Source: Christensenella massiliensis (GTDB taxonomy: Bacteria > Bacillota > Clostridia > Christensenellales > Christensenellaceae). From it: a stretch of 64,000 bases of DNA. The stretch covers positions 1,612,001-1,676,000 of the forward strand of contig LT700187.1 in the NCBI GenBank assembly GCA_900155415.1. The letters run 5' to 3'. Of the stretch, positions 43,130 through 46,414 are shown one piece after another. A program made the translations under genes and the position numbers. Position 1 is the first letter of the stretch, and the number at the start of each line of letters is the position of its first letter. The notes beneath the pieces are model-generated. The model did no database searches and was not told where the DNA came from. It saw nothing but the letters and a program-made list of their open reading frames with translations.

Positions 43130-43192
43130 ATCTGTAGTATAAAATGAACAGGCGTGCGCATGTGCGGGCGCATAGGATGGAGAATCGACAGA

Positions 43193-46100
43193 ATGAAAAA
43201 AACAGTAAGCTTATTTTTAGCGGTGGTTTTGGCTGTAACGGCAGTATTTTCCTGTGCGCCGCTTGCTTTTGCATCGGAGTTTCTTGTCGTGGAAAATTGC
43301 GAAGAACCAGACGAAAGCGGCCTCTATACGGCGCAGGAGGATACAACGGTAAGGATTGCGGATCCTGCCTCCGTGCAGGGGCAGCCGCTTCACTATATGC
43401 TGATCTTCACGTTGAAGAACAAGGAAATGAGGGTCACGGAGCAAATAGAATATGAACCGTCGCAACCGCTGCGCCTCACCGATGCGATCATTCGGGCAAT
43501 AGAGGACGGCGTGCTTACGCAGGAAGAGCTTGAGGGCGTCAGTGTTGCCATTCTGAGCATGACAGTCGGAGATGAAGACGCGGCCCTGTCGGAGGATATA
43601 CGTTTTCTTCCGGCGGCCTGCGCGCCGGTCGAATTTTTACAAGAGGAGGGGCAATATCCTGTTTCTGAGGAGATCGGTCTTTCTACACAAACGCAGGACG
43701 CAGAGATACGCTATACGCTGGACGGGACCTCTCCGCTCCATGAAAGCGCGCTGTTTTACGATAGGAACACGGGGATCGTATTGACGGAAGATATGAATAT
43801 CCGCGCAAGCGCGCGCAAGGCTGGGCTCAAAAGCAGTGAAATAGTACAGGCGGCCTATACGGTGGCAAAAAGCGGAGCGGTCGCGGCTTCTCCCGTGCCG
43901 GGAACTGTTCCTGCTGGAACGGAGGTCACTCTTTCGGCTGCTGAAGGAGAAACTATCCTCTATACGACGGATGGAAGCGTACCGGAAAAGGGCGCGGCCG
44001 GAACGGAGGACGCAGGAACAAACCGGGCGTCCGTAACGGTAAACGGGGATATGGTGATCAGCGCCCGAACCTATAACGGGGCTGCCGCACCGGGAGATGT
44101 GCAGCGTTTTTCCTATCGGGTGTCGGGTGCGGGTGACACTTACGAACCAAACGACAGCGCCGTTTCCGCAACGGAGGTCTCCTTTCCCGCAAAGCTGAAA
44201 GCGACGCTCCATACCGCTTCCGATGTAGATTATTATAAATTCCACTACAACTACCAAATGCCTGTAGAGCTGCTGCTCTTTCAGCCGGATGATGACAACG
44301 CGGCCTATACGCTCAGCCTGCTTGACGAAAGCGGAACAGAGGTCGCGCGCAGCGAATTGGAGGGCGATCAGCGCATCACAGCAAAATTGAGCGAAGGAGA
44401 CTATTATGCCGTTGTACAGGGAAACGGCGGATATTTTACGGAGCAGGAATATACGCTCGTGCTTTCCAAGCAGGCTGCGGAGGGGATCGATCTTTCTGAA
44501 TATAACATGCTGAACGCGATGCTCAATGCAGACTCATCTGAAGATTGCTACACGCCGACGGAGGGGCGCGGCGGTATTCTTTCAGGCGGGGACGTCTATA
44601 TGGCGCTCGCCTATCTTGCGCGATGGAGCGGCCCGGTCCTCGAGGCAGACGATCCGTATATGCTGGATGAACTGGATTATTTTGATTTTACCTATAACGA
44701 GGTGCCCGCGCGGTATCATTTGCGGCAGGCGATCCTGCTGCCCGACCGGGAGAAGAACGCGGAGGATACGCTGCATTATAAAAACGCGATCTATACCTAC
44801 GGGGCGATTTACTGCGGGCTGCGGCATATAGAGGGAGAAAACGGTTATTACGACGAGACGGGCTCCTACTATTATAAGCCGGAGGAGGATATGGCGGGCG
44901 GCGGCCACGCGATCTCGCTCGTAGGCTGGGACGATACGGTCCCGGCGGAAAGCTTCACCGTAACAGTGGACGGAGAAACCTATACGCCGGCGGGAGACGG
45001 AGCGTTTATTGCGAAAAACAATTACGGAACAGAAAAGGGACAGAACGGTTTTTTCTATATCTCCTATTATAGTGCGGACCTTTCGGCAAACTCGGCCGCG
45101 GCAATTTTTGTGGATGATCCGGCAGACAGCTACGATAACATCTATCAGTATGACATGCTGGGCTATACTAATTATTATGAGCCAAGCCAATATTCGCGCG
45201 GAAAGGTGCTGTACACAAAAAATGTGTTTGAAGCGGCGGGAGATCAGGCGATAAAGGCAGTCTCTTTCTATGCGATGCATGAGGAGCAGGACTACGATGT
45301 CTATATCGAAGCGAATGGGGAGACGAAGCATGTCGCCAGCGGAACGCATAAATATAAGGGATATTATACGGTAGAGCTCGGTGATGGGATGCTGGTTTCA
45401 AGCGGTGAAACATTCAGCGTGATAATACGCCTGCAAAACCGTGACGGAAGCGATGTTGCGGCGGCGATCGAAATGCCGATATCGGGGAGGTCGGAACGGG
45501 CGAAAGCGCAGGCCGGACAGAGCTTTACAAGCGCGGACGGAAGGACGTGGACAGATATCTCGCAGCAGTATTCGGCCAATAACTGCATCAAGGTATTTAC
45601 GGACGGTGAAGGAGGCGGCACGAACGAAGAAGACCAAGGCGAGCCGGGAACGGCGCTGCGCGTCTCCCAGCTTTCCGGAACCGGCATTTCTGCTCCGGCA
45701 GCAACGGCGGATACGGCTTCGGCGAGCGGTCAAAACCGGACGGCGGCTCTTCCGCAGGGAGAGACGGCAGCGCCGGCTACTGAGCTTCCGGAGAAATTTG
45801 ACCTGCGGGATGCAGGCGCGGTCACACCGCCGAAAAATCAGGGCTGGATCCCCTCGTGCTGGACGTTCGCGGCAATGAGCAGCGCGGAAAGCATCCTGCT
45901 GCGGCAGAATAATATCGCGGAAAAGCTTGGGGTGGAAAGCATAAGCATAAACAGCGCGGATTCAGTAGACCTAAAAGCGGAGGGAACGGCCGAGTTTACA
46001 GCGGCGGCGGTCGTCATGCCGGATGAAGAAGAATTTTCCGGTGTGAAATGGAGCTATGCGGGCGACCTCGACAGTATTGAGATCAAAATGGAGGATTCGG

Positions 46101-46414
46101 TAAGCGGAGAGCAGACAGTCCTTTTTACTGCGAAGCTTCCCGGAACGGTGACCATTACGGCAACGAGCACGGCGGATGATACGAAGTCAGTCAGCAAGAC
46201 GATAGAGATCACACAGGCAAGTCCGCAGCCTGCACCGGGTCCAAGTTCTCAGCCGGACGGAAACGGCGGAACGGGGCAGGATACGGCTGGGGTACAAGAT
46301 TCTCCAAAGACGAACGACGGCAAAGATATGACGCTGTGGATCGTGCTTGCCGTTGCTGCGGCCGCGGCAGTCGTTGTGGCTGTCATCCTGCTGAACCGGA
46401 AAAAGAAGCAATAG
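43193..46414 (+). CDS. Surface papain-like cysteine protease with catalytic halves in swapped order
   Basis: 1073 residues from ATG 43193. Order: signal peptide (1-28); two chitobiase-C-like beta domains (about 155-315, each with YT-DG-P); a PPC-like domain (about 320-425); then a papain C-half with His572 (GGGHAISLVGWDD) and Asn609 (AKNNYG); a lectin-like domain; and only then the papain N-half with DLRDAGAVTPPKNQG and Cys889 (SCWTFAAMSS). In ordinary C1A enzymes the Cys half comes first. An Ig-like domain, SPKTND, a membrane helix and RKKKQ end the protein, suggesting wall or membrane anchoring. Confidence 0.85.
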   Translation: MKKTVSLFLAVVLAVTAVFSCAPLAFASEFLVVENCEEPDESGLYTAQEDTTVRIADPASVQGQPLHYMLIFTLKNKEMRVTEQIEYEPSQPLRLTDAIIRAIEDGVLTQEELEGVSVAILSMTVGDEDAALSEDIRFLPAACAPVEFLQEEGQYPVSEEIGLSTQTQDAEIRYTLDGTSPLHESALFYDRNTGIVLTEDMNIRASARKAGLKSSEIVQAAYTVAKSGAVAASPVPGTVPAGTEVTLSAAEGETILYTTDGSVPEKGAAGTEDAGTNRASVTVNGDMVISARTYNGAAAPGDVQRFSYRVSGAGDTYEPNDSAVSATEVSFPAKLKATLHTASDVDYYKFHYNYQMPVELLLFQPDDDNAAYTLSLLDESGTEVARSELEGDQRITAKLSEGDYYAVVQGNGGYFTEQEYTLVLSKQAAEGIDLSEYNMLNAMLNADSSEDCYTPTEGRGGILSGGDVYMALAYLARWSGPVLEADDPYMLDELDYFDFTYNEVPARYHLRQAILLPDREKNAEDTLHYKNAIYTYGAIYCGLRHIEGENGYYDETGSYYYKPEEDMAGGGHAISLVGWDDTVPAESFTVTVDGETYTPAGDGAFIAKNNYGTEKGQNGFFYISYYSADLSANSAAAIFVDDPADSYDNIYQYDMLGYTNYYEPSQYSRGKVLYTKNVFEAAGDQAIKAVSFYAMHEEQDYDVYIEANGETKHVASGTHKYKGYYTVELGDGMLVSSGETFSVIIRLQNRDGSDVAAAIEMPISGRSERAKAQAGQSFTSADGRTWTDISQQYSANNCIKVFTDGEGGGTNEEDQGEPGTALRVSQLSGTGISAPAATADTASASGQNRTAALPQGETAAPATELPEKFDLRDAGAVTPPKNQGWIPSCWTFAAMSSAESILLRQNNIAEKLGVESISINSADSVDLKAEGTAEFTAAAVVMPDEEEFSGVKWSYAGDLDSIEIKMEDSVSGEQTVLFTAKLPGTVTITATSTADDTKSVSKTIEITQASPQPAPGPSSQPDGNGGTGQDTAGVQDSPKTNDGKDMTLWIVLAVAAAAAVVVAVILLNRKKKQ

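Follow-up and report, generated by a model that had tools for sequence, protein, structure and literature searches.

Reversed order of the two C1A halves in a Cwp84-like surface protein of Christensenella massiliensis, a probable natural circular permutant

Permuted versions of the papain-like fold have been described for NlpC/P60 proteins (C92, LRAT), PPPDE/C97 and LupA, as far as the accessible text of the relevant papers goes (PMC10318531, PMC3142127). In the available part of the former, cluster I, which includes the C1 peptidases, is said to keep all core elements (PMC10318531). The closest described relatives of the protein discussed here are the Cwp84-like proteases (PDB 4ci7, 4d59), which combine a C1A peptidase with a lectin-like domain, have the Gln, Cys and His in common with it, and are its best matches both in sequence and in fold. 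In Cwp84 the order given in the accessible sections of two reports is propeptide, Cys, His and lectin, followed by cell-wall-binding domains (PMC4089489, PMC4356305), whereas in our protein it is His, lectin, linker and Cys. Unlike Cwp84, it also carries chitobiase- and PPC-like domains N-terminal to the protease and ends in a putative anchor of the sortase type. The window is the whole stretch of 64,000 nucleotides that was analysed (contig LT700187.1, positions 1,612,001 to 1,676,000, forward strand), and coordinates given without a contig refer to it.

Gene layout and order of the two halves

The gene at 43193-46414 (+) is a single intact frame, the translation of which is a secreted-type protein of 1073 residues counted from the ATG at 43193; a GTG at 43154 is a second possible in-frame start. 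All features described below lie on the same strand. The N-terminus (residues 1-27, 43193-43273) reads like a signal peptide ending in AFA. A chitobiase C-terminal/Fn3_assoc domain (Pfam PF13290, PF13287) is found at residues 152-218 (43646-43846), the best of two stretches. A PPC-like (pre-peptidase C-terminal) domain probably occupies residues 314-428 (44132-44476), as judged from the homologues L126, L127 and L009, where PF04151 scores 30, 26.5 and 25.2 bits (cut-off 25.9, with L009 just under it); Pfam lists no PPC match in the window protein itself.

The His/Asn half of the C1A domain covers residues 431-640 (44483-45112), with the codons of catalytic His572 at 44906-44908 and of Asn609 at 45017-45019. 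It is directly followed by a lectin-like domain (Pfam Lectin_like PF18560, E 2.4e-36; residues 650-803, 45140-45601), which is a trait of Cwp84-like C1A and lectin-like proteases. A linker of 61 residues (45602-45784), predicted with low confidence and likely flexible, leads to the Cys half (45785-45919), in which the codons of oxyanion Gln883 and of catalytic Cys889 lie at 45839-45841 and 45857-45859, respectively. Predicted strands of low confidence suggest an Ig-like beta region at residues ~912-1010 (45926-46222; the AF2 model ends at 981), over which Pfam gives no match. The coding sequence closes with a putative sortase-type anchor (46301-46411) composed of SPKTND, a hydrophobic stretch and RKKKQ.

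The Peptidase_C1 family (PF00112) is split in this protein into two stretches, the best of which aligns residues 865-907 with profile positions 1-44 in Pfam. When the whole genome was searched with PF00112, two matches were obtained at E <= 0.001, both inside the window gene and in swapped order: profile 57-204 at 44543-45067 and profile 1-45 at 45785-45919. The whole protein (51.3 bits) and each half (30.2 and 27.2 bits) exceed the curated cut-off of 20.7. The linear order is His, Asn, Cys and departs from the Cys, His, Asn order of C1A enzymes. Comparison with Cwp84 (4ci7) by phmmer again pairs the halves in reverse: query 463-791 aligns with chain 133-452 at 67.9 bits, and the segment 865-903 of the query with chain 65-103; the latter match is weak alone (12.5 bits), and the Cys stretch scores better against papain (27.4 bits). 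Since the same order occurs in eight other genes, 30-81% identical to the window protein, chance is excluded, and the swapped order in 43193-46414 is confirmed as real.

An earlier, sequence-only reading had the His/Asn half precede the one with the Cys, and this is borne out by the profile positions and by these eight further genes. Its coordinates and its numbering of His572, Asn609, Gln883 and Cys889, counted from the ATG at 43193, hold as well, and the spacing of about 280-320 residues that it gave corresponds to 317 residues from His to Cys and 280 from Asn to Cys. A broken copy of a second C1A gene was rejected as an explanation on the basis of the PF00112 search, which gives no other match genome-wide at E <= 0.001. 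None of the four Pfam families listed for the protein at E up to 1 is an NlpC/P60, LRAT or C92 family. Pfam detects both halves, and NCBIfam lists nothing at E 0.01, which calls for caution in annotation.

The source genome contains four sortase matches, two of which (G000:C1 1215683-1216207 and 1506029-1506553) have equal scores and frame lengths and are perhaps a recent duplicate. The anchor motif of the window protein, SPKTND (46301-46318), compares with TPKTGD in four other surface proteins encoded by this genome and with PRTGD and PQTGD in its orthologues L006 and L007, respectively; the window protein thus has Asn where Gly is usual. Four large surface-protein genes (L002, L004, L005 and L003, at G000:C1 746253, 750436, 755427 and 2108018) have near-identical C-terminal ends, which suggests recent duplication or recombination. 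The window gene is flanked by an ABC transporter gene, of the iron/cobalamin type by eye, and by proS, also recognized by eye. Both flanks recur at L033 and only proS at L007, and neither is found within 5 kb of L032 (C. hongkongensis). Because the flanks differ among relatives, no functional link is claimed for the neighbourhood.

Relatives, phylogeny and break point

Counted by genomic place, the permuted order is present in nine genes: the window gene, five others in the same family and three in a distant genus. Within the family, PF18560 occurs in 6 of 18 genomes, each time in a gene of the permuted order. The window genus accounts for five of these genomes, out of six, with G001 lacking the gene; the sixth is one of two genomes of another genus (G012) and has the gene as a fragment at a contig end with the N-terminus outside it. 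Named records among the permuted genes are those of Christensenella hongkongensis (L032) and C. intestinihominis (L033). At the level of the order, PF18560 was found in 32 of 297 genomes. Outside the family, 27 of 31 PF18560 places were examined, and 26 are Cys-first and one (L048/L073) is without a Cys half.

In the class sample the permuted profile A2 matched in 67 of 391 genomes, and among the places listed for it the match runs end to end only in G000, G002 and G663. These account for three of the 30 loci returned from the sample; 26 are Cys-first and L113 has no Cys match. L112 has a weak Cys match of 15 bits. The family to which G663 belongs has the permuted gene in 3 of 40 genomes, all from a single genus that was represented by five genomes in the search. 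No further end-to-end match was found in the corresponding order (67 genomes, E <= 1e-35), in the phylum sample (10 of 398 genomes matched, E <= 1e-30) or in the class of G849 (10 of 63 genomes matched, E <= 1e-30). Three of four long partial matches were examined and are Cys-first (G684, G677 and G676); the fourth is G683:C27, 39-476.

Altogether, the 130 ORF rows represent at least 83 Cys-first genes and two without a Cys half, and a listing of homologues by order of the halves sets these at least 83 genes beside the nine permuted ones. After duplicate filtering there were eight permuted rows against nine by place, as near-copies were merged and some fragments retained. All counts of relatives refer to samples and best matches and do not form a census. 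The Cys-first relative L076:2155-4290 (-) has about 129 extra residues between its Cys and His halves; a long insertion in L115 was ruled out, the segment measuring 29 residues. In the distant genus, the permuted proteins (L126:1287-5747 (+), L127:2359-6852 (-) and L128:1301-5761 (+)) are 1487-1498 residues long and possess an extra front region. In L126 and L127 this region shows by eye a zinc-metalloprotease-like HELQH motif, so that one chain may hold two proteases; no Pfam family is listed for it at E 0.01. The gene next to the permuted gene of L126 matches Peptidase_S8.

The His/lectin half was used to calculate a maximum-likelihood tree of 78 rows, nine permuted and 69 Cys-first. One branch (96/90) separates all nine permuted rows, which amounts to one change, and one change was also found in 98% of 200 bootstrap trees. 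The permuted rows adjoin the Cys-first rows L108 and L110 (93/82) and lie within the Cys-first diversity under midpoint rooting, the root as drawn being a midpoint only. In C1A enzymes the Cys-first order is the rule. From this and from the placement in the tree it follows that the permuted state is derived. The circular permutation proposed in the sequence-only reading is thus supported by the profile positions, the Cys-first relatives and the single change in the tree. The two permuted groups are divided by long branches (0.57 and 1.26), which indicates either an ancient arrangement or its transfer. As the same rearrangement occurs in relatives from two bacterial lineages, it has the appearance of a genuine redesign that is inherited, and not of an error. 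Duplication followed by trimming is a plausible origin. No intermediate with two Cys halves occurs among the permuted ORFs, and no leftover Cys half precedes the His half, with one Cys-half match per permuted ORF (L010 starts at a contig end).

The earlier proposal that the chain enters the protease exactly where the halves normally join holds, as a short loop is found at this point in Cys-first proteins. The loop measures 2-12 residues in the 27 genes (40 rows) in which both halves align to their ends; these are 27 of 70 Cys-first genes, the alignment of the other 43 falling short where the His half begins or the Cys half ends. On the permuted side, the linker between the lectin-like domain and the Cys half has 50-70 residues.

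Predicted fold, mechanism and alternatives

An AF2 model of residues 426-981 was obtained with a 30-row alignment in which the halves of Cys-first proteins were entered as separate rows (pTM 0.73, mean pLDDT 69.1). In this model, which includes the His/lectin half, pLDDT is 84-88 over the four ten-residue blocks that make up the Cys half. Of the 38 ten-residue blocks of the His/lectin part, 19 are at 80 or above and 28 at 70 or above; both blocks of model residues 21-40 are below 40. The catalytic helix begins at Cys889 in the model, and a three-residue strand (KFD) in the Cys half has no partner strand within that half. In a control restricted to the Cys half and the Ig region, which had a smaller alignment (19 against 30 rows), pLDDT fell to 45-51 and pTM to 0.23 and the KFD strand was lost. 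This drop suggests, with the fewer rows of the control in mind, that confidence in the Cys half depends on the other half. The model and the control indirectly support the earlier proposal that the fold closes across the lectin-like domain, and they bear on whether the C-terminal segment can pack on the His/Asn half. A papain fold with one active site may result, in line with the AF2 confidence and the control. The best Foldseek matches are Cwp84 structures (4d59: E 8.2e-20, TM 0.70 by target length), but Foldseek follows chain order and this result is silent on where the Cys half lies.

In view of the above, the protein is very probably a working, single-origin natural circular permutant of the Cwp84-like clostridial surface proteases, with proteolytic activity, export and wall anchoring presumed. 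The fold would have been broken in the short loop that follows the catalytic helix, and its N-terminal segment, which bears the oxyanion Gln and the catalytic Cys, would have been relocated behind the lectin-like domain and joined to it by the linker of 50-70 residues. During export the His/Asn half and lectin-like domain would emerge first and the Cys half near last. The Cys half could then swing back along the linker and pack on the His half, as the model predicts, by which a papain-like site would be rebuilt. The C-terminus, beside the Cys half, would fix the protein to the wall. From the order of the halves and the anchor-like tail we infer that completion of the site may be delayed until the C-terminus has been exported, and that the Cys half may sit by the wall.

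The propeptide of Cwp84 (residues 33 to ~91) wraps the lectin-like domain and then lies in the active-site groove, according to the accessible parts of two reports (PMC4089489, PMC4356305). A route of comparable length is therefore at hand for a linker that leaves the lectin-like domain and reaches the Cys half. In the permuted proteins the linker holds the propeptide's place before the Cys half and is similar in length, with no sequence similarity detected by hhalign. A linker that is a relocated propeptide by sequence was rejected on this ground (E 0.31 and 0.63), in a comparison of the nine linkers with the segments that precede the Cys half in 69 Cys-first rows, signal peptides being included in some of them.

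An extension of this mechanism, which we consider unlikely, is that the protein is a zymogen by topology. There would be no removable propeptide, and the enzyme would be inactive since its Cys half leaves the cell last and is held by a linker in the propeptide's place, between the lectin-like domain and the active-site groove. If the zymogen reading were true, activity would be confined to the wall, and cutting of the linker would give a two-chain enzyme with the Cys half wall-bound and the His/lectin part free to leave.

The same linker bears on an exchange between molecules, which the sequence-only reading had raised tentatively, together with a coupling of activation to anchoring. The Cys half would complete the His half of a neighbour on the wall, and activity would depend on surface density. 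Its length, its pLDDT of mostly below 50 in the window model and the poor folding confidence of the Cys half alone are compatible with trans-complementation. However, the single-chain model already gives the Cys half high confidence and nothing in the sequence demands a dimer, which makes this option very unlikely.

It is harder still to credit that the permuted domain has ceased to cleave peptides and now acts as a module for binding or as a scaffold. The unrecognised propeptide and the absence of the gene from G001, a member of the same genus, would fit such a role, but Gln883, Cys889, the Trp of Cys-Trp, His572 and Asn609 are invariant in all nine permuted rows despite identity to the window protein down to 30%. 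The role of Asn609 is uncertain, since the Asn proposed as catalytic in Cwp84 is reported to lie outside the active site in the available text (PMC4089489). Finally, a misassembly or local rearrangement in one strain has a negligible probability, being contradicted by a source genome that is one contig of 2.56 Mb and by eight genes with the same order from other assemblies, two of them also present as named records.

Comparison with known permuted systems

Permuted papain-like folds are already known, and among the open-access PMC papers listed for the topic we found no report of a permuted C1A enzyme. The accessible text of a paper on the origin of the papain family (PMC10380794) does not contain 'permut'; papain appears only in the reference list within the available part of PMC12667903, and the sole mention of permutation in that of PMC4070553 concerns PDZ domains. 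The present case would be a natural circular permutation, apparently of single origin, in the classic papain (C1A) family and in a surface enzyme of a gut bacterium. With Cys-first relatives available, survival of the fold across an inserted domain and replacement of the propeptide are directly testable.

The permuted NlpC/P60 proteins (YaeF/YiiX, LRAT) likewise have the Cys part behind the His part and the break away from the active site, according to the accessible text (PMC3142127). They belong to cluster II and C1 to cluster I in the part of the classification available (PMC10318531). PPPDE/C97 and LupA have a permuted papain-like fold too, yet they are not C1A enzymes and are described there as deubiquitinases or deSUMOylases (PMC10318531). 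In BcPPNE a loop formed by residues 103-110 joins the permuted sub-domains, as stated in the available sections of that report (PMC3142127), whereas in the window protein this connection is made by a whole lectin-like domain and a linker.
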